Shown: positions 2,932 to 58,900 of the stretch, piece by piece
Numbering within the stretch: the first letter of the stretch is position 1
How the letters are laid out: every line of letters begins with the position of its first letter
Source: Pegea sp. RAD2-039
Lineage: Eukaryota; Chordata; Thaliacea; Salpida; Salpidae
NCBI GenBank assembly: GCA_034620365.1
Contig: JAQGEQ010000192.1
Coordinates: forward strand, 4,397,001 to 4,461,000
Length of the DNA: 64,000 nucleotides
Direction of reading: 5' to 3'
Notes under the pieces: generated by a model
What the model saw: the letters and a program-made list of their open reading frames with translations, nothing else
The model's database searches: none
Told to the model about the DNA's origin: nothing
Translations under genes and position numbers: made by a program

Positions 2932-5177
<2,246 letters not shown>

Positions 5178-7703: not shown

Positions 7704-10280
7704 ATGGTTGATTTAAAGAAAAAGGTAACCTTTAGTTTTCTGTTTAAATCATTTAATAAATTTAATTAATTTGTTATATTTTCAAGGTTTCGAAGAAAGG
7801 AAAGGTTGCTGTGATCAAACCAGTCAAAAAAGACGTGGAGGTAAAAACTTTATATTATAAATTAATATTTATAAATATAAATTAATATAATTATATTGTA
7901 AATTATATATTACTGTTGCTAGCTTGTATTAATCTAATATAAAAATTTGAAATATTTCTACATAAATTGATTATTTTTTATGTATCTAGAAAATGGTCAA
8001 AAAAGTGGAAAAGCCAGTTAAGCCAGTGTCCAAGAAAGCAGTTGTAAGTTAAAAATTGAACTTGCTGAATTTGAAATAAATTTGTAAATTTAGTTTTTAC
8101 TTTTTAATTGATGTTTCAAATATTTTAGGTGAAGACACCAAAAAAAGGAAAGAAGGTTCCAAAAAAACCCGTGAAGAAGGAATCATCTTCTGAAGAGGAG
8201 GAAGAAGAAGAAGAAGAAATGGAAGTTGAAGTTAGTTTTGACTTCGAAAATTTATGATTTGACTTATAACCATCGACTTTTCAGGAACCAGTCCAAGAAG
8301 TTGCCAAAGAAGTAATTTCAATTTTTCATAATTTCAATCTCACACTTGCTTCAGTTTGTTGAATGACCAAAATGTTTATAGAGTGAAGATGAAAGTGAAG
8401 AAGAGTCTGCAGATGAAAAAGCAGAAGAGGAATCTGAGGAAGAAGAAGATGAAAGTGAAGAAGAAACTGCTGTTGTGAGTTATGAACTAAAATTTTATTT
8501 TCCAAATTAATTTTTTATTTACTGAATTAGGTGAAAAAAGCAGGAAAGGCAAAAGCTGCTGCTAAAGAAGAGTCTGATGATGATGAGGAAGAAGAAGAGG
8601 AGGATGAAGATGAGGAAGAGGAATCTGAAGAAGAATCCGACAAGAAATCTTCTGAAGCTGTTAGTAGACTAAAATCTGTATTTTCTAATTTTTATTCACT
8701 AAAATTTGTTTCAGAAAGCTGAAGAAAGTGATGATGATGATGATGAAGAAGAAGACGATGATGAGGAAGAAGATGATGAAGAGGAGGAAGAAGTAAGTCA
8801 ATTGCTTAAATTTTTTAACTGATGATTGATGAGGATTTTGTTTGTAGGAGGAAAGTTCAGAAGAAGAAGAAGTAGAAGAGGTAAGAAATAGTCTTGTTCT
8901 GATGCTTGATCAACGATAAATTTAAATTTTAGACAAAAAAAGAAACAAAGAAAAGAAAAATTGAAGATGAAAATGAATCTCAGAGCAAAAAGCAGAAGAC
9001 TGATGGTCAGTTGATATAATCAAATCCATCTAATTGCAACTGAGTTAAAATTTTTCACAGAAGTTCTCACTTTCCAATTCACCGAACTTCCTGAAAATCT
9101 CAATGACAGCGTCTTTGAAAAATTCCTCAAGAGCAAAGAAATTGAGTGCATCTCGTGTCGCGCCAACTACGCGAGACAGTGAGTCTTTCGTCTTCAATAT
9201 AGTCTTCATCAAACATTTGCTTATTTCACAGAAAAGCTTTTGTTGATGTGAACGCCGATGATAAAGGCAAAGTACTTCTGTTGGACCAGACAGAATTTAA
9301 TGGGTACACTATCAGCGTGTCTGAAGACCAGCAACGTCAACAAAGACAAAGCATGGGAGGAAATGATCGAGATCAACGGACGCTGTTTGCTAAAAACCTT
9401 CCTTACTCCGCTGATGAGCATATGATCTCTCAAATCTTTGAAGGAGTTCGAGAAGTCCGTATTCTTCGTGATCGCGACTCCGGTAGAGCTAAAGGGTAAG
9501 CAAGCCAGATGAAGACATCTTCTGTGATGTTATTTTGTGTCTTCTTCAGCATGTGTTTCATCGAGTTCTACGATAAAGATGCCAAAGATGCTGTCTACGC
9601 TTCCAAAGACAATTATGAGTTAGAAGGTCGTCAGCTCTACATTGACGTTGTCGATGGTGGCGGTCGAGGAGGCCGAGGTGGTGGCCGTGGTGGCGGTCAA
9701 CGCAACAGCTTCGGTGGACGAGGTGGTGGCCGAGGCGGCGGCGGTCGCGGTGGTCGACAACCATCAGCACCAAGCAGTACTTTGTTCGTAAAAGGAATCA
9801 CCGAAGACACAACGAAGGATTCCCTCTTCAGTGTCTTTAACGGAGCTTCAGATGTTCGTCTGATTACTGATCGTGAAACCGGCCGAAACAAAGGGTAATA
9901 TTTTGCTAATTTGCATCTTGCCCCAACTCACTAACCTCTTTCAACAGTTTCTGTTACATCGAATTCCCGTCTGAGTCATCAGCAACTGATGTCTACAAAA
10001 ACTCCAAAGGCGGCATTGAAGTCGATGGATCCAGAGTTTACGTCGATTATGCGTCACAAAGAACCAACGATGGCGGTCGCGGAGGCCGTGGAGGTGGCAG
10101 AGGTTGGTTTGATTCCGATTAAAATATCGGATGTCATTAAATGTAATTTTGACATCAGGCGGCGGCTTTCGAGGAGGCCGTGGTCGAGGCCGCGGAGGAT
10201 ACTCAGCAGCTGCAGCGAAAAATAAAGGAGCCATCCAAGACTTCCAAGGAAGCAGAAAGACATTTTCTGACTCTGAATAA
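7704..10280 (+). CDS. NCL: Nucleolin (acidic N-terminus, three RRMs, RGG)
   Basis: The major nucleolar protein binding pre-rRNA and chromatin during ribosome production. Fifteen exons (7704-7724, 7787-7840, 7990-8043, 8129-8230, 8285-8311, 8382-8474, 8531-8659, 8715-8792, 8848-8880, 8933-9005, 9061-9178, 9232-9495, 9550-9894, 9948-10102, 10159-10280) join in phase to 555 residues. Residues about 1-80 are Lys-rich with TPKKGKK-type repeats. Residues about 65-200 are alternating acidic and Ser tracts spread over many tiny exons, several ending in phase 0. A basic KRK patch follows, probably the nuclear localisation signal. RRM1 is weak. RRM2 has TLFAKNLPYSADE and MCFIEFYD. RRM3 has TLFVKGITEDTT and FCYIEFPS. 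RGG repeats lie between RRM2 and RRM3 and again at the C-terminus. Vertebrate nucleolin has four RRMs and only a terminal RGG block. AATAAA is at 10307. Confidence 0.9.
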
Positions 10281-12109: not shown

Positions 12110-12480
12110 CTGGCAGCAATGTATAATATGCTAAGCTAGAACAGGCTTCGCTGGCTCGGTCACACACGTCAGATGAAAGACGGACGGATCCCCAAAAAAC
12201 TGTAGTATAAAAAGCTTTCATAAGGCAAACGTAGCATCGACCGTCCTTGCCTTTGTTCTAAAATGACTTAGATCGATACCAGCAAAAGAGAAAATATTGT
12301 AACTCCAAATTGTGCTCTCTACTTCATAAACAATAGAAGAATAGAGAAGAAATTCAGTATAAAAAAGGAAGAAACCCTAAAAACTTTCCTACTTCTTCTT
12401 CACTGTGTCTATTTTGTTTACGACACTGTTTCAGGAGCACGCCCAACACGGCCCTATTCACCCAAAGAAGACCATTATTA
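12110..12480 (+). mobile_element. 3' fragment of an RTE/craniin-type LINE, plus copy
   Basis: Translates as NRLRWLGHTRQMKDGRIPKK, the well-known C-terminal block (LRWLGHVxRM-DGRIPK) of endonuclease-reverse transcriptase LINEs. A stop follows, then GKRSIDRP. It ends in a GARPTRPYSPKED-like tail. It is interrupted by several stops and, compared with the opposite copy at 14780-15350, lacks about 24 bases near 12267. It is one arm of an inverted pair. Confidence 0.8.
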
Positions 12481-13469
12481 TTATCTCAGTTGAATCGGTG
12501 TTACAAGAAAAAATATATAAAAATATAAAAAATTTTACTTAAACACTTATAAACCTTATTTAATCTAATATTTATGACGTTCAGCTCATACAAGATTTAA
12601 AATTTAATTCAAATAAGATTTCGAGCTGAGATGACATCATATGAAAAATCGACTGACTTTCGCCTGAACTTGTATATGATGTCATCAAATGATGAAATGT
12701 AAAATATCTAAATGCTGTTTCAATGAGGTGGTAGAAACTCGAAATAAAACCACAAACAACTTGTTTGAAAAATAAACTTTGCGCTTGATGGTGGTAAAGA
12801 ATGCTTGAGAAATGTCTGCAAGCGAGACCTTGATCATGGTGTGTATCTGTTCCAAAAAATCGATCAAATTAATAATGATATGTTCATGTTGATATTACAT
12901 TTTATTATTGTACGATTATTTTATATGAATTTTTATGAAGTTATTTCTTCTATTAAACATCATAAACCGTGTTACGTGGCTATTACTTTAAATTAGTTGT
13001 AAATATTTTTACTTGTTTGTCTGTATCAAAAATCCAAGATACAATCAAATAAGCATTTATGAAGTTGATTTACTGACTATTTGCCAAAGTGTTAATTGCT
13101 TTTAGCAAATCGAACTAATTAGATAGTATTGTGTTTGCTGTTCATAGCAATAAATTAAAAATTATCTGTTCAACTAATATAAAATATAGCTTAATCACTT
13201 ATTTCACTCAATTTTTAACATAGATAAGAGCTTAAACAATATCTTAGTAGGATGACTTTTCTTGTTAATATTCTAATTCCAAATAAAAATGTTGTTTGTA
13301 AAAGATTTCTTGAAAGGAATTACGATAGCCTCTCGCTTTGTTTGATTAAGCCCTCATACATTGTGATCGAATAAAAGAAAAAAGATTTTCTTACAATCAT
13401 AAAGCTACCCTTTAGTTTGTGAGTTTTATAAAACTATCAAGTGTTAAAGTTTGTTTGAAACGGCATAAA

Positions 13470-13751
13470 ATGCCTCATAATTCTAAGGTTATTATTGAGT
13501 ATGGGCCTTATAGAGGTGGTTGTGCTATTATTGGACATCGAACAGCTAGATTAGAGGGACTACAGCAAGTATTGACTGACGAAGGGCATCTTATAACATT
13601 AAAGAAAATTCCATGTTGGAATGTTGTTCGTATAATTGTAAGTGGTGAGGTGATTTTCACCTGTTGTGTTGATGATTTTGATTATGGAGGTGATGGAAAG
13701 CTAGATACAAGGTGTAAAGAAATTGCAAAGCTGGTAATCTTAGCTTACTAG
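13470..13751 (+). CDS. C10orf53: UPF0728 family protein (C10orf53 homologue)
   Basis: A 93-residue protein encoded in one exon. YGPYRGG, LEGLQQVL, LKKIPCWNVV, VSGEVIFTC and YGGDGKLD match the human C10orf53 pattern YGPYSAAG, LQGLQAVL, LEKIEDWNVV, VNEEVIFHC and FGGDGKLD at the same spacing, and both end in LxAY. Function is unknown for the family. The start MPHNSK was chosen over an upstream in-frame ATG at 13419 because human begins MPKN and the upstream 17 residues have no counterpart. The absence of introns in a genome where neighbours are densely spliced raises the question of a retrocopy, but the frame is intact over the full family length. It lies between inverted LINE fragments. Confidence 0.87.
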   Translation: MPHNSKVIIEYGPYRGGCAIIGHRTARLEGLQQVLTDEGHLITLKKIPCWNVVRIIVSGEVIFTCCVDDFDYGGDGKLDTRCKEIAKLVILAY

Positions 13752-14779: not shown

Positions 14780-15350
14780 AATAATGACTTGTCTTGGCTT
14801 TGTAGGACTATGCTGAATGTGCTTCAGAAATGATGTCAAAAACACAGTGAAATGAAAAAAACTAAACGTTTTTAGGGTTTCTTCCTTTTTTATGCTGATT
14901 TTCTTCTCTATTCTTCTATTGTTTGTGGAGTAGAGCATTTGGAGTTGCAATGTCTTCTCTTTTGCTGGTATCGATGTAAGTGATTTCATATCACGCTGGC
15001 ATATATCTTTAAAACGAAGGCAAGGACGGTCGATGCTACGTTTGCCTTATGAAAGCCTTTTATACAACAGTTTTTTGGGGATCCGTCCGTCTTCCATCCG
15101 ACGTATGTGACCGAGCCATCGAAGCCTGTTCTAGCTTTGTATATTGTACATTTTTGTTAATTCGATACGCCTTAGGATTTTCTCGTCAGAGCTCTTTTGC
15201 TGCCATTTAATACGTAGGATACGACGAAGACAACGAATATAAAATGGGTTGAGTTTATTTTCGTTAGCCTTCGACAAAGTCTAAGTTTTGCTCGCGTACA
15301 ATAGCGTACTGCAGACGAAGGCTCTGTGGTTTTGACCAATAACTCATTAA
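14780..15350 (-). mobile_element. 3' fragment of an RTE/craniin-type LINE, minus copy
   Basis: Minus-strand translation gives, in order, an SLRLQYAIV-like block, MAAKELSDEKILRRIEL, then NRLRWLGHIRRMEDGRIPKK, GKRSIDRPCLRFKDICQRD and a Lys/Glu-rich tail. This is the standard C-terminus of the family. A few stops interrupt it (for example before NRLRW and before GKRS). It preserves more of the element than the plus copy at 12110-12480: about 200 bases further toward the 5' side and a segment missing there. Confidence 0.85.
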
Positions 15351-16526
15351 TATAGGATAGTTTTATTAGGATAATATTAAAAGAATGTTTTAAAAAAAGC
15401 AGTTTGATATTTTTTGAATTATTATTTTATTTATATCGAAACAGTATACAAAACTGCCAATAAAGGTATGATTTTTTATTTAAATATAAAATTTTTTTTA
15501 ATTTCTCGAAAGTAGTGCGTAAAAATCATCATAAAATAATCTCAATATTATCGAAATTTTTAATATAAACATTTTGTAGTTTGTAACTTTTTTTTGTTAA
15601 ATTAGCCAATAACTGGCGGCCAAATGTCTAACAGTATGACGTATACTGCGTGGGCGAATTTAATTGGTTCCTGATTAAATGACGACGACCAGTCACGCTT
15701 GACTGCTCATTATCGGCCAGCATAAGGTCCTGAGCTAAAGACACGTTTTACTATAGTCAGCTGACTTGTATTCTGATCAGCAAATTTGTTTTGTTAGTAG
15801 TTACTCATCGTATCTGTAGACCATCCTTCATTCTGCATAAAAATAATTTATGATTTGTTTAATGCTACCGATTTTAAAAGTTTACTTTAGAAGCTTTGAG
15901 TACCATCTAGTATTAACTTTGAAGTTTTTATGCAAGTTTATCTTTTAGATAGATCTCTGGTTCTTAGATTTTATAAAAAAAACTGAAATTTTATTCAATT
16001 GTTATGAAAAAAATTTTCATGGTTTTTTATTGATAATAATATTAATTGCTGTTTACACTTGAAAATTATGTTGATATTTTGAGTCTTGTTGTACATGTAA
16101 TAATATTAATAGCAAAATTAGAATATTTTCAATAAAATATAAAAAGATTATTATTCTATATTGTAAAGTTTGGTAAAAAAAAAATTAGAATTAAAGTTAG
16201 ATCGATTTGAAGTTCATCTTCAATTTAATTTTTATTGTTTGAAAAATACAATAACAAGTGATGAAAAATTTCTGATTTTGATTCAATTTGATTCAATGAT
16301 TCCGTCTAATTGATTTATTTGATAGTTTAAAGTTAATCAAATCAGCTAATAAATGGTTTTATTCTATTATATATTGAATATAGGTGTCAAGTTTAACTTG
16401 TAGCTAGAAATAGACCTTGCATTTTTTGTTATGTTTTAGATTTATAAATATTTAAATTTAATTTTATTTTCACAGTTTAGTTTAGAATCAGACTCTTACT
16501 AGTTAGGAACATTTTAAAAAAACATA
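15351..16526. other. GRP94 promoter and 5' UTR region
   Basis: A locally G+C-richer block (15600-15790) with a CCAAT box, a TGACGTAT site and the ER-stress element lies 740-930 bases before the ATG. It is followed by A+T-rich sequence. A polypyrimidine tract ending in CACAG at 16475 suggests a 5' UTR intron whose second exon begins at 16476, which would place transcription start near 15700-15800. I could not fix its donor. Confidence 0.5.
15649..15667 (-). promoter_or_regulatory. ER stress response element (ERSE)
   Basis: On the minus strand this reads CCAAT, nine bases, CCACG, a perfect match to the ERSE consensus bound by NF-Y (CCAAT half) and ATF6/XBP1 (CCACG half). In mammals the element controls GRP78 and GRP94 and works in both orientations. 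It is upstream of the GRP94 homologue and inside the only G+C-rich block there. Function is inferred. Confidence 0.72.
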
Positions 16527-19500
16527 ATGTCAAAAAACTTTTGGATTTTGACATTATTTGTTGGATGTCTTCTTTTAAGTAAGTTTATTAATTTTATAAA
16601 TGAAAAATATATAATTATAAATACTTTTTCTAAATTTTCCACTTAATTATCCTTTCAATAATGATTTTGAATTTTAATTAACAGATACTGGATCAGTTAG
16701 ATCAGAAGAAGAAGAGGATTCAACTGCGTCTAATGAAGATCCAGTTGTTGAAGAAGATATTGGAAAAGCATCTCATGGCTCTAAAACTGATGATGAAGTC
16801 ATTCAAAGGTTTTGATTTAAACTTTTTATTGGAAGTTTTTTTTTTCAAATTTTTTATAATGTAGATTTATTGAAGAAACTTATACAGTTATCTAGCTAAA
16901 ATAACTTGTAATCTGACAGGGAAGAAGAAGCTGTTCATATAGATGGATTGAGTCCTAAAGAAGTCAAACAACTACGTGAGCAGTCAGAGAAACATGTCTT
17001 TCAAGCTGAAGTTAACAGAATGATGAAATTGATTATCAATTCTCTTTATAAAAACAAAGAAGTTCGTATCAACTTTATCACCATGAATAAATATTTGAAA
17101 TAAGTATAGATAGATAAATATATATGATCAAGTCAAGCTTTTCCTAATTGCTCTTTCATGTTTTATTTTTGTAGATCTTTTTGAGAGAGTTGATCTCAAA
17201 TGCTTCCGATGCATTGGATAAAATCAGATTAACTTCACTTACTGATAAAGATATTTTAGGTGACACTGAAGAACTATCTATTAAAGTTAAGGTATGCAGG
17301 ATACAGCAACATCCTTTAATTGTAAATTGATGAATGGTTATTTGAAGGTCGACAAAGAAAACAACGTACTTCATGTAACTGATACTGGTATTGGTATGAC
17401 CAAAGCAGATTTAGTTAAAAATCTTGGTACTATTGCTAAATCTGGCACAAGTGATTTCTTTGAACAAATGTCACAAGCTTCATCAGAAGATTCTGTCTCT
17501 GATTTGATTGGTCAATTTGGTGTTGGATTTTATTCGTCATTTTTGGGTGAGAACTTCAGAACAATTTAGAAATTGAAGAAATCTGAAGCTAGCAAATTGT
17601 CTAAATGAATCTTTTACAAATATAGTTGCTGATAAGGTGATTGTTACATCCAAAAACAATAAAGATCCCAAACAACACATCTGGGAATCCGACTCAGAGT
17701 CCTTCTCTGTAGTTGAAGATCCTCGTGGAGTAACTCTTGGACGTGGAACAACAGTTTCTCTGTATCTAAAAGAAGAGGCACTTGATTATTTGGAAACTAA
17801 CACTGTTAAGGATCTGGTGAGTAAATACTCTCATGAAGTTGACTTTTTGTTTCATGTGATTTTTACAGGTTCAAAAATACTCACAATTTATCAACTTCCC
17901 TATTTACTTGTGGACCGAAAAAACTGTGAAAGAAGAAGTTCCAATTGAAGAAGGCGAGGAAGAAGAAAGTCCAGTTGAGGATACTGAAGACAAACCTGAT
18001 GATGATGAAGCTGAAGTACGTTCCCATCTTCTAATTACTCCAAATTAAAATGGTTTCTTAAAAGGTTGAAGATGAAACTGATGAAGAAAAGAAACCCAAA
18101 ACTAAAACTGTCGAGAAAACTGTGCAAGATTGGGAATTGTTGAATGAGACCAAGCCTGTTTGGCAACGACCAGCCAAAGAAATTACTGACAAAGAATACA
18201 GCGAGTTTTACAAATCTATTTCAAAGGTAAAAAACTTTACAAAAAATTTGAAGATTTTTGAAGTTCAAATAATTTTATGAAATATTTTCAAGATTAACTA
18301 AAATTTTTATTTCAGTTTTTTTATCAATAAAATTATTGTGTCTACTATTAGAAATTCTTGCCAAATTTCATTTGATGAAATCACTAAATCCTATTCTTGT
18401 TGATATTAAATATTATAAAAGCATCAGGATTCTTCTTCTCATATCAGGATTCCACTGACCCAATTGCCAAAACTCATTTCGTTGCTGAAGGAGAGGTTTC
18501 CTTCAAATCAATTCTTTTCATTCCAGCTACAGCTCCTTCAGGAATGTTTAATGATTATGGAGGCAAAAAAGCCGATGCCATCAAGGTCAAGAAAGCATGC
18601 TGACGACTTTGTGCATGTTTTCACCATCTGCATGACATATTTTGTGATAATCAATCTTTGCATGCTCATTTCTAACCCCGTTTTCTTTTCTTTGCTTTGC
18701 TGCATGTTTGCAAGGATTTAAACACACCTCTTGGTCACATTCACTTCTCTGCCGAAGGTGAAATCTCCTTCAAAGGCATTCTATTTGCACCTGATTCACC
18801 CCCTAAAGCCATGTACGATTCAGACACTGGCAAAAAAGTCGACCATGTCAAGGTACAATTTATATCAGTGAAATAACAAGGATGTAAAAATATTCAAACT
18901 TTTATCTGCAACTTCCCAAAAAGACCTAATCTGTTTTTCTTCATTTTTCTCAGCTATTCTGTTAATGATTTACTTTTGATATTATTTTGTTGAAAGCTTT
19001 ATGTGAGGCGCGTATTTATCACTGATGATATGAGAGAGATGTTGCCAAGTTATCTGAATTTTATTTACGGTGTGGTGAGTGCGTAGACAACGCACAAGTA
19101 GCTTCTGCATGTGTGCTTATTAGTGCTTTCTTTGCATGAAGTGTTTTTATCGAAGATAAAACAGGATAATTATTCTTAGTTTCGTCTTGTAGATGTACGT
19201 TCGACGTGTATTCATTACAGACGATTTCCAAGACATGATGCCTAAATACTTGCAATTTGTTCGTGGTGTAGTAAGTATTCATTCAAATCATTTTCTTAAG
19301 TTAAAGATGTGATGACTTCAGTGATGGTTCTCGAAAAATGTTGAGTTGAAGTAGTTAGTTTAGATGATGTTTGAAATCTCAAATTTTAACATCTTTAGCT
19401 TGAATTCGTTTTTCATTATTAGAAATGATGAAATAGCTGATAAAAAAGAACTACATTTTTACAGAAGCTAAGTGATTGATATTTTCATCCAGGTCGACAG

Positions 19501-21430
19501 CGATGATCTTCCATTAAATGTGTCTCGTGAAACTCTTCAACAACATAAGCTGTTGAAAGTCATCAAGAAGAAGTTAGTTCGCAAAGCGCTTGATATGATT
19601 AAGAAGATCGACTCAGAGGCTTACATGGAGAAGTTCTGGAAACAATTCGGCACCAAGTAAGCTGACATCGTCTTGGATGTTACTTGAAAGATGTCGATCT
19701 GTTCAGTATCAAACTTGGAGTGATTGAAGATCATAGCAATCGAACCAGACTTGCCAAATTACTTCGTTTCTTTACATCTAATCATCCAACAGATCAAACT
19801 AGTCTTGAAGATTATGTTGAACGTATGAAAGAGAAGCAAGAGAAGATTTATTTCTGTGCCGGAAATGGACGCGAAGAGGTCGATATTAAAACTTTATTTA
19901 CTGCTAGCAGTTTCTGAAGTGAGGTGTTCTTAGGTCGAAAACTCCCCATTCCTTGAAAGATTACTTAAAAAAGGATATGAAGTCCTCTACTTGACTGAGC
20001 CAGTTGATGAATACACTATCCAAGCTCTTCCTGAGTTTGATGGTAAACGATTCCAAAATGTGGCCAAGGAAGGTTTAGATATTGATCAAGGTGATAAAGC
20101 CAAAGAGCGTAAAGAAGCTCTTGAAAAAGAGTTTGAACCTCTTGCTAAATGGCTCAAAGAAAGTGCTTTAAAAGACAAGGTAAAGTTGATAGTTAGTTGT
20201 TTCAATCATCAATTGATTATTTGTAGATTGAAAAAGCTGTAATAACTGAACGTCTCACTGAAACTCCATGCGCTCTTGTTGCCAGTCAATACGGATGGTA
20301 AAACTGACTTGTTGATTTCTGTTGTAAAAATGGTAATCATGTAACTGGTAGTTTATCCGACATTAAAGGCCCAGTTCTGTTTAAATGTAGTCACTTTGTA
20401 AACATATTTTATGATAATAGGTCAGGAAATATGGAACGTATTATGAAAGCACAGGCTTATAAGTCTCAAGCTGATTCTTCTCAAAAGTAAGTACCACGAC
20501 TACTTTGTTTCAAGTTGTTTTTCTTTTGATAAGGTCAGGAAATTATGAACGATTACAGTCGTCACAACGTTATCAAAATCAGAAAAATACGTGAGTTACT
20601 ACACCAGTTATTGGTGTAGCAGTGGGAAGGGTCTATCACGTTTGATTTCCTCAATCAACAGCTTAATTTAGACCAGTCTACGACTCAATCAAACAATGAT
20701 TCAGTCTTAACTTGTAGAAAAGTTGTAGATGATTATAGATTAGTAACATAGGGCTAGTTACAAACGTTTCTCGAACAAAACGTTGTTGTAGTTTCAAGCA
20801 AACAATTTGCACTTTATCTAAACGTAAATATCTTTTCAGCTTCTACAGCAATCAGAAGAAAACTTTGGAATTAAACCCAAGGCATCCTCTGATCAAAACT
20901 CTTCTTTCAAAGATTGAGGTTCAATTTGAAACCGAATCTCATCCTAAATTAGAATCCTAATCTGATGACTTGCAGGCTGATGAAGAAGATGAGCAAGCTG
21001 CCAATATCGCCAAGGTTATGTTTGATACAGCTGTTCTTCGTTCTGGTTATCAACTTAAGGATCAAATGGACTTCTCCAAACGTATCATGACCATGTTGTA
21101 CTCGACCCTAAACATAGACCCAGATACACCAGTAAGTGGTCACATCTTTCAACTAGTTCCCTTTTCAATCACTGATTTTTAGATTGAAGCCGAACCCGAA
21201 GAGGAAGAAGAAGAGGCTGATGAAGACGAGGAAGAAGTTGATGCAGATGATGAAGATGATAATGATGAAGATTCAACTGAAACTCCAACTGAAGAAGCAA
21301 CTGAAGCTCCAACTGAAGAAGCAACTGAAGCTCCGACCGAAAAAGCTTCCGAAGAAGAGGTTTGTGTGATCTTCCTACTTTTCATCTGATTTTCATTTCA
21401 TATATTCTTCAGACTCACGATGAATTATAA
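16527..21430 (+). CDS. HSP90B1: Endoplasmin/GRP94 (ER HSP90) with three duplicated exon pairs
   Basis: The ER-lumenal HSP90 chaperone that folds secreted and membrane clients. Exons: 16527-16578, 16685-16808, 16920-17061, 17175-17291, 17348-17546, 17626-17816, 17869-18015, 18065-18226, then 9A/9B, 10A/10B, 19493-19656, 19707-19878, 19934-20179, 20227-20297, 15A/15B, 20840-20918, 20976-21131, 21183-21359 and 21413-21430. Taking one copy of each pair gives 832 residues (829 with 15B), close to 803 in human. Signal peptide at residues 1-17. The N-domain ATP site has [13 protein letters not shown] and [12 protein letters not shown]. An acidic charged linker is encoded by exons 7-8. The catalytic Arg loop [11 protein letters not shown] lies in exon 11, which is not duplicated. 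The tail is acidic with ATEAPTEE repeats and ends in THDEL, an HDEL-type retrieval signal where vertebrates use KDEL. Regulation: ERSE upstream, TGCATG clusters inside. Confidence 0.95.
18448..18585 (+). other. GRP94 exon 9A (canonical-like copy)
   Basis: 138 bases, phase 0 at both ends, residues 379-424. Encodes [19 protein letters not shown] and [13 protein letters not shown], close to human HFTAEGEVTFKSILFVPT. This is the start of the middle domain and includes the src-loop region of HSP90s. Acceptor TATCAG; weak donor GTCAAG. Confidence 0.9.
18595..18706 (+). promoter_or_regulatory. Cluster of RBFOX-type TGCATG motifs between exons 9A and 9B
   Basis: TGCATG occurs at 18612, 18629, 18659 and 18701, and AGCATG at 18594, all inside one 129-base intron. 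UGCAUG is the RBFOX family binding site, which usually promotes inclusion of an upstream exon and blocks a downstream one. The last copy overlaps the 3' splice-site region of 9B. I found none in the other long introns flanking the duplicated exons (8-9A, 9B-10A, 10B-11, 14-15A, 15B-16). Confidence 0.75.
18715..18852 (+). other. GRP94 exon 9B (diverged copy)
   Basis: Also exactly 138 bases and phase 0. Encodes [19 protein letters not shown] and [13 protein letters not shown]. By my count 22 of 46 residues match 9A. The structural core AEGE-x-SFK-x-ILF is kept and the loop after it differs. Acceptor GCAAG, with a TGCATG ending eight bases before the exon. Confidence 0.88.
18997..19074 (+). other. 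GRP94 exon 10A (diverged copy)
   Basis: 78 bases, phase 0, residues 425-450. Encodes [20 protein letters not shown] then NFIYGV. It matches 10B at 17 of 26 positions, with the differences in the second half. Acceptor GAAAG, strong donor GTGAGT. Confidence 0.88.
19106..19138 (+). promoter_or_regulatory. Two RBFOX-type TGCATG motifs between exons 10A and 10B
   Basis: TGCATG at 19106 and 19133 within the 118-base intron separating 10A from 10B, the second place where duplicated exons adjoin. Confidence 0.7.
19193..19270 (+). other. GRP94 exon 10B (canonical-like copy)
   Basis: 78 bases, phase 0. Encodes [20 protein letters not shown] then QFVRGV, close to human [19 protein letters not shown]. 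Acceptor TTGTAG, donor GTAAGT. Confidence 0.9.
20421..20486 (+). other. GRP94 exon 15A (canonical-like copy)
   Basis: 66 bases, entered and left after two codon bases. Encodes [20 protein letters not shown], where human has [13 protein letters not shown]. Met672 and Met676 correspond to the two methionines of the gp96 C-terminal client-binding segment. Acceptor AATAG, donor GTAAGT. Confidence 0.9.
20534..20590 (+). other. GRP94 exon 15B (diverged copy)
   Basis: 57 bases, same phases as 15A, beginning 47 bases after it. Encodes [18 protein letters not shown]. The two methionines become Tyr and Gln and the insert is three residues shorter. Acceptor GATAAG, donor GTGAGT. Including both 15A and 15B would also stay in frame. 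Confidence 0.86.
20599..20619 (+). promoter_or_regulatory. Hairpin just downstream of exon 15B donor
   Basis: CTACACCA and TGGTGTAG form a perfect eight-base-pair stem with loop GTTAT, starting eight bases after the GTGAGT donor begins at 20591. Position suggests an influence on 15B donor use. This is inference. Confidence 0.5.
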
Positions 21431-49524: not shown

Positions 49525-52500
49525 TCATTGTAATGTATGGACGTAACCATAGAAGGCTAAAGTTCCAAATGTAAACAAGCACAAATACAGCCACATAAAG
49601 AAGCGGTCAATAATCTCTGCGATTTGTCCCCATTCGTCCTTTCCCTGTCAGATTTTTAATTCTAATTACTTATATTATTATTATATTTGTATAAAAACGA
49701 CAAATTGTGAAATTCAACAACATTGTTTTAGGTTTCATGGAAAATAATTTCTTCTAAACTAATTATTAGTTAGAAAGTTTATATTCAAATGCTGAGTTAA
49801 CAATTAAAGTAATTATTAGGCTTACGAATGCTAAATCATAGAATAATGGTAATAAGTTAAATGGTATTTAGCTTTCAGTATTGAATAATCACTCACTAGT
49901 TGATCATCATGATCTTTTTTCAGAAGAGATCCAATCAATTTGATCTTTGAAAAAGATTTTTCAATAAAGTATGGAACATCAGTCGTAAATTTAACTTCAG
50001 GTAAATTCAAGGTTTTTTCTTTTGTTTTACCATCATACTCATAATCATTTGAAAACAAACCAAAACGTCTAGCCTATAATTATATTCATCTTAAAAATGA
50101 TTGATAGTTCTATGAACTCAACTATAACCTTAAATAACACGATTGTATTTAAAAGGATGTTTTTCTAAACGTTTCTTACAGTTTTCAAAACAATAAAGAA
50201 TAAAGTTGTACGTAAAAGTAAAATCAACACCACATAGTTACTTCTCTTGTATAGTAAGCATCGCTTGAAAGTTTATCGACGTAGCTACAATTTGAATTTT
50301 TAAACCCATTTGTTTTATCATGACTATTATGTGTATCTGAATAAAAGAAAAAAGTTGTTAAAAATTTAATGCACCAAATTTTAAATCAACATTCGTATGG
50401 TTTTAATTCTAGCATTGTCAAAATTTGTATTAAAAACTCATAATACTATCCTGATTTGAAAATAAAACGAACCTCGAAACTTTCTCCCTGTATAGAAAAT
50501 ATTTTTACCATGATTGGTTCTTCCCATTCCTACAAATTTCTTTAAATATATAAAGATCATATCTTTTAACCATATTGGTTTGTTATGACTAGAGTTTGAC
50601 CTCCAGTGAATACTCAGTACAAAGGTACTGAAACAAAATATTCAGCTTTGAACTTGTTTCAGCTGTTTAATAAAAATTCTAACATACTTTCTCAAATGAC
50701 AAATTTGCAGTCAATGAAAATTAAATATTTAAATAAAATAGTCATTATTTAAATCACTCTTTACAAAGAGAAATTGAAAGCCCTATCATATTTAGACGAA
50801 TACAAAAGTGAAATGACATTTTTTTAACGATTTGTACTCAGCAAGCAATTTTATTTTATTACTCAAGCTGCTTGAACAAATTTATTGTTTGTAAAATGTC
50901 ATTATAAAAAGGAGTACCTTGTAACTACACAAGTTGATAGAAGAAGAGCGGTATAAAGAAGATAAGCAGCAATCAAAGGAACTGAAAATGAAGTTGATGG
51001 CATTCGCTGAGCAAACAAGAAGATGAAAATTGTATCTCCAATCAGTAGTGATATACCCAGCGATATTTTTTCGCCTGTAAAGTATTTTTTGAGGCTTATG
51101 TCGTCAAATATTACTTTTGTTTCATAAGTTTTCATTTGTATAATTCTAAACTCAAGTAAACGTTTTTAATTTTAGAATAATATTTGAAAGAAAGATTTCA
51201 ATTAGGACACGAAAAGGTTTTTGAAAAATTAAAATGTTCGAAAATAAAAATAACTTACCTGCTGCTGACGGCAAGTAAAAGGTAAAACAAGAGAGTACAG
51301 TTAGAAGAATACAAGGAAGCAGCATATTAAGCGTGTAGAACAGTGGCTTTCGTTTAGTGACTAAAGTAAACCTTATTTCAGTAGCTTCTGTTTTACTGTT
51401 TGGAATAATCATTTCTACTGGACTATCAATTAAGTCCCATTCACCATGAGGTACAAATTCTAAACAGAATTTTAATATGTAGTTTCTGATAATTGAAAGT
51501 TTAGACTCACCTTTATTATCAACCTGAACTCTATCAATTTCTTTTCCTTCTGTATCTTTTGCAAAGCTAAGATTTAGTTGAGATGGATAATAACCTGCTG
51601 ATTTGAAGACTAAGGAGCAAGTTTGTTGATCAAATGGAAAATGAGCAATCTGAGACCAAGTAGATCTATCAGTTAGCCACCGCGTAAATTTAAAAGTTAA
51701 AGCTTCTAACCGAATAAGTTTGATTTAAATAAGATAATCGCTGATATTTAGTTAAAGCTATTCACTGAAAATTCATTTTCTAGCACATTACCGTCAAGGC
51801 TAAAAAATATTACAAAGTTAGATAAAAAAAGTGTCTTTAACACCTTTAGGAACTAGCACTAAGATTTATCATATATTATAGCAACTTCTTTTAGTTTTAA
51901 TTGCTCTACCTATAACTCGAATACCTCAGAACATTTTAGTTTAGCTTTAAAAGTTTTTTATGCACGTCACTTGACATATGTTACACTAATTAGTAGAGTT
52001 TTTCTTAAAAGTGAACTATTCAACATATTTTAAGACTAACGATCACTATATGCTGCATTTTAACAACTTTTTGTTTAAGCTTATGAAAGACTACCAAAAT
52101 GTTATATCAGTAAGTATACTGTTTTTATGGATTGCAGTATATAAACAAACTTTTATTATAAAACTTTTAATAGAAATTAAACAAATATCTAATCAATTGT
52201 TTGTAATATTAGTCTCAGAAAATCTTACTCTAATCGAACATGAAGTTTTGAATATGGACAAAGGAAGCCACTCTACAACACCAGTGTCATACACTAAAGC
52301 ATTTACGAGCATCGACTCTTGCATGTTACCATCTACACTGTAATAAAATAACGATTTTGATTTAGTTTTAGTTTTTTGGTGAAATTGTTCATTTTTAATA
52401 TAATAACTAGTTGAATTTTTGTTTGATATGCACCATAATACTTAAACTAAAACAAATCGATTTATTTATTTATTTACAGAAAAACGTATGGCTGCAGATA

Positions 52501-55983: not shown

Positions 55984-58900
55984 TCAACTGGATTGTTTCT
56001 TAATTTCATCGACAGTAGATTTTTGATAGACAACATTAAGATCGTTTGGTTTTTCAGATCTAAAAAATTGAAAGTATGAATAAATAGTTACTAAAAATAA
56101 AAATCTACAAACTAACCTATAAAATGATCTTAGTGATGGATACACGTTGTGTATCGCAGCCACTGCCCGTTCAACACTCTTTGCTGTGACTGTTATTGAG
56201 CCGGTAGAAAAGATTTTCAGAGCTGCTTTTGCATCTAAGTCACGAAAAGCCACACCAGGGTGAATCTCCGGTTCGTAGCTAAGAAAAACAACTATTAGTT
56301 GAAAAATGTCCACTGAAAATTGTAATATGGTGGAAAAATTTAAGAAGGTTTAAAATCGGTCCTTTCTTTTGAAGTCGCCATGTAAAAGGTTAAATAATTA
56401 TAATTACTACGTTTAAAAATGTTAAAATCTTCAATCATGATGAACCATCTAGGGTTGAATTGATAAATTTTTAGCAAAGAATTTCATTTGATCGAGATAA
56501 AAGAAAAAAGATGAAAGTAAGTTTTAAGTTGATTTGGGAGAAAATATCTTGAGTGGTTGAACTTACATAAACATCATTCAACAAAACTTGTAATCATTAC
56601 TTATGTTAGTTATAAAAATAAAGCTATCACCTGTGTATAGTAGCGAGACATATTTAAAATATCATACTTTCTCGCAGAAAGTTGTTGTTTGCTAACCTGC
56701 ATTGCTTGCCTTGGTTAGCTACAGAAAACATTTGGATATCAACTTCATACGGCATCTTAGCAGTAGCCAGCACGTTGACTACTTTATAACCCGAAAATTT
56801 CGCCTAAAAAATAAAACAAATTCTTATAGTAAGAGTGACGTGAAAATTTATAGACTTTGGATAATGAGAAAAATGAAAAAAGTTGAAGAAAACTAGATGA
56901 TTTAAAAGAAGATCATTTACAATAAAAAGTTGCTAATATTTCAAGTTTTATTTTCCAATTCAGCTTAAACTTTAGCATCAACTAAAAACATTAAAATAAA
57001 TTGTTGAAACAACAAGTAATAAAGAATGGATATTTAGGAGTGATAAAAGATACTTAAAATTGCTTTTTCAGTCATAACAAAAATCTTAAATATTTGCTTT
57101 GTGATATAGATGATGATGCACTAAACTTATTTACCAATTTAAAGTAATTTAAGTAAAATGAATATAGAAATCACAATACTAGTAAATAAACCTGTTTTGG
57201 TTTAAGAAATATCTTTCTAGTCAATAAGTTTTATTATTTTAAGGAAAGAATTTATGGTTGAAGCTCATACAATTATTTTTATAGAACTAGAAGAAACAGA
57301 AACAGAAAAATCATTCAAGCAAATAATAATCGAATTTTGATTTATTGTCGAATCAAAACTATTTGATGCTAAATAACAGAATAAGATTGGTAAAGGATTT
57401 TATTGAATATTACAATTTCAGTATTTGATAAAATAACTTAGAAAAAATTTGAACTTAATTATGAAGTTAGCTACGATTAATGCCAGTGAAAAGTAAAAAG
57501 CTAGATTACCTCTTTAGTACAAATACTAAATGAAAGTTATTATTTGAAAATCAAATATTTATTATTACATAAACAAATGAAGTTAAAAAAGAAAATAATT
57601 AAATAAATTAAGAAAAGATTGAATAGCAAATGAATTTGATAATCTATCACTGATACTACAAAGTGACATGTTTTGAAATCAGAACTTTTAAGAATATAAA
57701 CAAAATATAAACAGCTAGAAATAAAAGAAATACCTGAAAACCGATCTTACGAAGTCTTTTAACAAATTTCAGAGCTGATTTTCTAGAATTAGCCGCAGAG
57801 GTTGAACCTGTACAAACTACCTTACCAGACGACCACATATATGCGGTGCATTTTGGGTATCTCATTTTCATTTCAACTTTCTGAGATATAAATAATGTAA
57901 AAATCTCTTTACCAGTATAAAAATACTGAGTTATCTAAGAAAAACAACAAACCTGTTTTTCACGATCGTAAATGACATCAAAAGACGTTGTAGCAATATG
58001 TCGAAGGTTCAGATGACAACATGCCCGGAATCTTGCAACCACGTTGCTAATTCGAACATTCAAACATTTGGCTGCTGGAATGTTTTCAAAGTTGGGCAGA
58101 ACCACCTGAGTAAAAAAAAGTTTAATTAAAAGATCCTACTTCAAAATAAAATCGAAAAAGATTAGTTAAAGACAAGTTATCGAAAAATTAAAATCTGTAA
58201 AAGATGTTACAGAATTTTGAATGATTTAAACACTAGAAAATAAAACATAAATCACCTTTCCTAAAAGACCTTTTCTCGTTTCAGATAAAGCTGACCTCAC
58301 CATATTATTACTATCAACATATACCTTCACACCCGATGATGTGTATTGTTTATTAAGAGCTAATAAACTAGGCGAACAATTTCTACGAATGATTGTTCCA
58401 CTATTAGAAGTTTGAAAATTAGCACCAAGTTGTGGTCTCGATAAAGCAGTTCTAGGATCAACAATGACATTAGCGCTTTTTAAATCTACTGAAATCTTTG
58501 GAGCTGTACTGATAACACTGATCTTTTGGGTCGACAAATTATTTACTTTTTGCATCGATGGGTTAGAGTTTAATCTTTGAGTGCTTAACTGAGAGATCGT
58601 CATTGTTTGGCCACCAATAGTTTTGACGCTCACAGGCTGGGAAGATAGACGAAGAAAGTTGCGAGGAGAAACTTGATTAGTTTTTTGGTTGCTGGTTGCA
58701 TTGATTTTACAAATGGTAGCAGGAGACCCAATTACTCGAATTGGTGAGTTACTTTGTTTATGACTAAAAGCTACTTTGTGTAATGGAGCTGTGGGATTGA
58801 GAGTTTGTATTGGAGTAATCTGTTGGATTGAATAACTACTAGAGTTGGATTGACATTTATAAATAATTGGCATCCCATTCTTGTTATCGGATCCAATATC

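Follow-up and report, generated by a model that had tools for sequence, protein, structure and literature searches.

A GRP94 gene of Pegea with three tandem exon pairs and GCATG motifs confined to the introns within two of them: a probable splicing switch

The version of the endoplasmic reticulum (ER) chaperone GRP94 that a cell of Pegea sp. makes is probably a matter of choice between paired exons. Exons 9, 10 and 15 of its GRP94 (endoplasmin) gene each occur as two adjacent, diverged copies. We consider it likely that this one gene gives rise to several GRP94 forms via mutually exclusive splicing, with an RBFOX-family protein selecting exons 9A and 10A and with 15A or 15B being chosen by another signal. 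The gene was studied in a window of 64,000 nt (contig JAQGEQ010000192.1 of assembly GCA_034620365.1, forward strand 4,397,001-4,461,000; G+C 29%), and genome-wide searches covered the assembly of 105.7 Mb in 387 contigs.

The GRP94 gene is complete from ATG to stop and occupies 16527-21430 on the plus strand of the window. Our exon model comprises 22 exons at 19 positions, separated by 21 introns that are all of the GT-AG type. Choosing the vertebrate-like copies 9A, 10B and 15A yields a product of 832 residues, which has a signal-peptide-like start, as judged by eye, and terminates in THDEL. Its top match among the structures of the PDB is an endoplasmin (9n9j_y3, 1180 bits), aligned over query residues 5-813 and thus nearly full length. 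By its sequence the gene is a GRP94, given homology nearly end to end and a (K/H)DEL terminus, the signal peptide being assigned by eye only. It shares with vertebrate GRP94/gp96 (HSP90B1) this near whole-length similarity, an ER retention signal and the same client-binding elements, but it differs in carrying HDEL instead of the KDEL given for the vertebrate protein in the excerpted text of PMC5100913, and in its three duplicated exons. An acceptor-like TTTTCACAG is located at 16474-16475, about 50 nt upstream of the start codon, and points to an intron in the 5′ UTR or to trans-splicing at this site. Viral contigs, searched with exons 10B to 17 (one copy per pair), yielded no relative.

Elsewhere in the window we located exons of a carboxylesterase-like gene (3014-3496), of an RRM glycine-rich protein (9500-9898) and, on the minus strand, of a neurotransmitter-gated ion channel (51152-51724) and a TBP-family protein (55984-56349). 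An open frame at 13416-13751 encodes a UPF0728 family protein with a full-length model match (Pfam PF15092, 1.1e-28). Upstream of GRP94, local alignment revealed a stretch at 12118-12297 that resembles one at about 14950-15153 in the opposite orientation; one strand reads like part of what we take to be a non-LTR retrotransposon (RLRWLGH-type peptide). Arrays of TTAGGG were seen at the start of contig C125 and on C139 and C342, which argues against an arthropod source, the arthropod repeat being TTAGG. A search of the assembly for COX1 gave no match.

The two copies of exon 9 are found at 18448-18585 (9A) and 18715-18852 (9B), each 138 nt long and in phase 0; 9A is the vertebrate-like version of this middle-domain segment with the Src loop, and 9B is the alternative copy. 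Exon 10 is present as the less vertebrate-like 10A (18997-19074) and the vertebrate-like 10B (19193-19270), each of 78 nt and again in phase 0. Exon 15A (20421-20486, 66 nt) encodes the canonical client-binding helix, including the Met658 and Met662 positions, and 15B (20534-20590, 57 nt) encodes an alternative helix that is three residues shorter. All six exons lie on the plus strand, are preceded by AG and followed by GT, have lengths that are multiples of three, and match their partners in phase. All eight transcripts with one copy per pair are free of internal stops (833 or 830 codons including the stop). The exon coordinates, phases, frames and splice sites of the original prediction are thereby borne out. 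On this sequence evidence, the pairs are homologous adjacent exons of the same phase and interchangeable frame, as in mutually exclusive tandem exons, and each mature transcript would contain exactly one copy of each. The eight introns bordering an alternative exon have a median length of 136.5 nt, against 55 nt for the other 13 (p = 0.0024).

The pairs also emerge from an unguided scan of both strands of the window for tandem protein-level copies (at most 600 nt apart, score of at least 50, low-complexity filter). Among its 11 matches, pair 9 ranked first (123) and pair 10 second (107), and pair 15 scored 54; the remaining eight comprise two in an RRM gene at about 9.4-9.6 kb, four of low complexity that had escaped the filter, and two that mirror pairs 9 and 10 on the opposite strand. 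Compared with shuffled partners, the pair scores correspond to z = 14.1 (pair 9), 13.3 (pair 10) and 5.9 (pair 15).

GCATG is the core of the RBFOX site. All seven sense-strand occurrences in the gene fall within two introns: five in intron 9A-9B (18586-18714, 129 nt, plus strand), starting at 18595, 18613, 18630, 18660 and 18702, and two in intron 10A-10B (19075-19192, 118 nt, plus strand), at 19107 and 19134. Together these introns account for 247 of the 4904 nt of the gene, and the other 19 of the 21 introns contain none. The first group begins 10 to 117 nt past exon 9A, its last member ending 8 nt short of 9B; the second lies 33 and 60 nt past exon 10A. In the two introns combined, no other 5-mer is as enriched as GCATG, which occurs 7 times where 0.09 would be expected from the window; across the entire window it is under-represented (38 versus 60.7 expected, both strands). 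None of 5000 dinucleotide shuffles of intron 9A-9B reached five GCATG, and 37 of 5000 shuffles of intron 10A-10B reached two, which taken alone is only moderate. This confinement to introns 9A-9B and 10A-10B, arranged as in the switch between exons 8 and 9 of FGFR2, is new beyond the original prediction.

Such clusters were sought across the genome as a triple TGCATG pattern, with the pattern read backwards as control. The search returned 98 matches (46 forward, 52 reverse) versus 3 for the control. Most belong to tandem arrays on contigs C123, C27 and C35, leaving 10 places elsewhere, one of which is the GRP94 intron. Inspection of the best four tandem peptide matches per strand at the other nine revealed a candidate exon pair in one only, a forkhead gene (L031). 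The others are repeat arrays (L025, L032), EGF-like repeats (L024, L029), other repeats (L027) or places with low tandem peptide scores only (L026, L028 and L030, with 46, 60 and 45). Thus, the TGCATG cluster is rare outside arrays and by itself is no mark of an exon pair. The forkhead gene, presumably FOXP-like (G000:C249:1094600-1100700), has two tandem forkhead-domain exons near positions 1840 and 2659, 819 nt apart and each preceded by AG, with GCATG at 3027, 3057, 3069 and 3172, downstream of the second. Pfam Forkhead matches both exons, the second below the Pfam cut-off. This is possibly a second RBFOX-governed pair of the genome.

A candidate for the protein that would read these motifs is encoded on contig C11. 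A search for RBFOX gave 20 matches, and we inspected the loci on C11, C246 and C1. The C11 locus is an RBFOX-like RRM gene, read as three exons, which shares 50 of 72 residues with the human RBFOX RRM; the matches on C246 and C1 represent different RRM proteins.

Pair 15 has none of these motifs: introns 14-15A, 15A-15B (20487-20533, plus strand) and 15B-16 are free of GCATG. A possible but doubtful reading is that the regulated switch comprises pairs 9 and 10 only and that 15B is decaying or rarely used. This would fit a nonsynonymous difference of pN 0.41 against pS 0.57 over the first 18 codons, a comparison with about 10 synonymous sites (p = 0.23), and a lower identity to vertebrate GRP94 (14 of 30 residues, versus 21 of 30 for 15A, counting exon 15 and the opening residues of exon 16). 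Moreover, the probability that 19 codons stay open by chance is about 0.22. However, 15B retains an intact acceptor, donor, phase and frame, its first 20 nt (20532-20551) are 85% identical to those of 15A (20419-20438), and the pair score stands well clear of shuffled partners. A predicted fold at 20487-20634 (plus strand) likewise speaks against decay. Here, the acceptor tract of 15B pairs with the end of 15B, and a second hairpin follows just past the donor (minimum free energy -36.1 kcal/mol, z = -2.38, 6 of 200 shuffles as stable). For the shorter stretch 20500-20600 the value is z = -0.99, with 35 of 200 shuffles as stable, and we regard the fold around 15B as a weak lead for regulation. 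RNA structure as a switch for pairs 9 and 10 was set aside, as the predicted folds of their inter-copy introns barely beat shuffles (z = -0.51 and -1.46).

In each pair, one member is nearer to vertebrate GRP94. Exon 9A matches it at 29 of 46 residues and 9B at 21, the two copies having 22 of 46 residues in common; 10B matches at 22 of 26 and 10A at 19. These values, together with those for pair 15, agree with the original prediction that 9A, 10B and 15A are the vertebrate-like members. They could also be read to mean that 9B, 10A and 15B are unused relics of old exon duplications, but this is improbable. The copies are 59% (pair 9) and 63% (pair 10) identical in DNA. The proportion of synonymous differences exceeds that of nonsynonymous ones in both pairs (pS 0.69 and pN 0.32 in pair 9, p = 2.5e-4; pS 0.96 and pN 0.22 in pair 10, p = 2.2e-7; Fisher on rounded counts). 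With synonymous changes near saturation and amino-acid changes limited, pairs 9 and 10 look constrained on the protein level, and they look old: either the duplications are indeed old or one copy evolved fast. In addition, 46 codons would remain open by chance with a probability of only about 0.025, the splice dinucleotides are intact, and the motifs lie exactly between the copies.

Joining both copies in one transcript, to give a longer GRP94, would leave the frame intact: every copy is divisible by three, so that double inclusion, like skipping, would preserve it and exclusivity is something we only infer. A frame shift as the bar to double inclusion was rejected for the same reason. Steric exclusion by too short an intron was not supported either, the inter-copy introns measuring 129, 118 and 47 nt and the shortest of the other introns, 13-14, also measuring 47 nt. 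Even so, we find double inclusion very improbable, since it would be expected to repeat 46 and 26 residues within the compact middle domain and since the motifs are arranged as in an exclusive switch.

An assembly artefact, in which two GRP94 genes or alleles were merged, is scarcely conceivable: although another HSP90-family locus is present in two near-equal copies, the 2401-bp stretch at 18440-20840 has a single match in the 105.7-Mb assembly, the copies of pairs 9 and 10 are diverged in DNA far beyond alleles, and three separate tandem pairs alternate with single exons. HSP90-family matches in the genome lie at the GRP94 locus (contig C3), at one locus on both C25 and C245, and on C78. The copies on C25 and C245 (G000:C25:820688-822781 and C245:109170-111263) have near-equal scores; the locus is putatively cytosolic HSP90, and its two copies are either haplotypes or a recent duplication.

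The case for an RBFOX-governed choice within pairs 9 and 10 thus rests on the confinement of the motifs to the inter-copy introns, the presence of an RBFOX-like gene and the constraint on both copies. For these pairs, the splicing switch of the original prediction is supported; pair 15 has neither the motif nor significant constraint. We propose that an RBFOX-family protein would bind the GCAUG elements in the introns within pairs 9 and 10. As in FGFR2, it would block the downstream exon and favour the upstream one, so that cells with RBFOX would make 9A and 10A and other cells 9B and 10B. Pair 15 would be set by a different signal, for which RNA folding around 15B is one possibility. The prediction had also allowed up to eight proteins. 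All eight combinations are indeed open, but that number may be too high given the signal shared by pairs 9 and 10: if these switch together, about four main forms may be left. We infer the action of RBFOX, its direction, the tissue pattern and the change in clients from the features described here; the direction, namely that RBFOX would select 9A and 10A, follows the FGFR2 rule by analogy. Against such a rule, it joins 9A with 10A although the copies resembling vertebrate GRP94 are 9A and 10B, and the canonical pair would therefore occur in neither pure state. That intron 10A-10B contains just two motifs is a further point against the switch.

Known exclusive exons offer close parallels. According to the excerpted text of PMC2880598, UGCAUG lies in the intron between exons 8 and 9 of FGFR2, where Fox2 represses exon 9 and promotes exon 8. 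The similarity to GRP94 pairs 9 and 10 is the placement of UGCAUG between two alternative exons. As far as that text goes, FGFR2 differs in being a growth-factor receptor with one pair and one UGCAUGCAUG stretch, whereas GRP94 is a chaperone with three pairs and five motifs in intron 9A-9B. In Caenorhabditis elegans, exon 5 of egl-15 and exon 7 of unc-32 are controlled by ASD-1/FOX-1, and here too UGCAUG in a neighbouring intron sets exclusive exons: in the intron upstream of exon 5B of egl-15 it represses 5B, and in intron 7b of unc-32 it favours exon 7a (PMC3585155, excerpts). The unc-32 gene has two exclusive sets, 4a-4c and 7a-7b. In the same excerpts it differs from GRP94 in having its site in intron 7b and in also needing the CELF protein UNC-75. 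Since a site in intron 7b favours 7a, position alone cannot give the direction of the choice. Giardia Hsp90 is another HSP90-family gene with unusual splicing; in the portion of the source that describes it, however, trans-splicing joins two separate RNAs and no exon choice is involved.

The original prediction knew of no description of such a GRP94 gene, and our literature search, which covered few subscription journals, likewise found no GRP94 or HSP90 gene with such exon pairs among the matches listed. The excerpt of a paper on Anisakis enumerates splice types in general terms and mentions GRP94, nothing more, and the main text of a bee review yielded neither GRP94, endoplasmin nor mutually exclusive exons. 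GRP94 isoforms of this kind could already be present in automatic genome annotations.

Some of the segments encoded by the duplicated exons have published roles in client binding. Aligned by eye, exon 9 corresponds to the Src-loop segment (human Hsp90alpha 349-FDLFENRKKK-358), exon 10 to the next loop (human Hsp90alpha 368-VFIMDNCEEL-377) and exon 15 to the C-terminal amphipathic helix and loop 618-629. In contrast to these paired segments, the catalytic-loop sequence NVSRETLQQ is encoded by exon 11, a single exon. The excerpted text of PMC9063849 names the Src loop and the CTD loop of HSP90s as client-contact sites. That of PMC8002708, citing Wu et al., describes GRP94 residues 652-678, notably Met658 and Met662, as critical for integrin alphaL binding. 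Counting back in the endoplasmin alignment places both methionines in exon 15: 15A has both, and 15B has Tyr and Gln instead. A segment containing 9B and 10A still has GRP94 as its best match (202 bits, versus 226 bits with 9A and 10B). The earlier claim of client-facing duplicated parts is in line with these published elements, as far as the two excerpts describe them. The predicted forms would share the ATP-binding and catalytic-loop exons. They would be distinct in the Src loop, in the VFITDD loop next to it and, at the C-terminal end, in the client-binding helix and loop, and would thereby differ in their choice of clients.

How HSP90 chaperones choose their clients, and which surfaces they use for this, is still being worked out. 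In this one gene, swaps appear to have been made at just the client surfaces, which would allow isoforms to be compared directly for their clients. A broader reading, which we neither favour nor disfavour, is that in the only ER HSP90 of this animal the client range would be tuned by tissue-specific splicing around an unchanging ATPase; RBFOX would switch both middle-domain pairs at once, and the C-terminal pair would be set independently. If this is true, splicing, and not duplication of the gene, would give a housekeeping chaperone its cell-type-specific forms.
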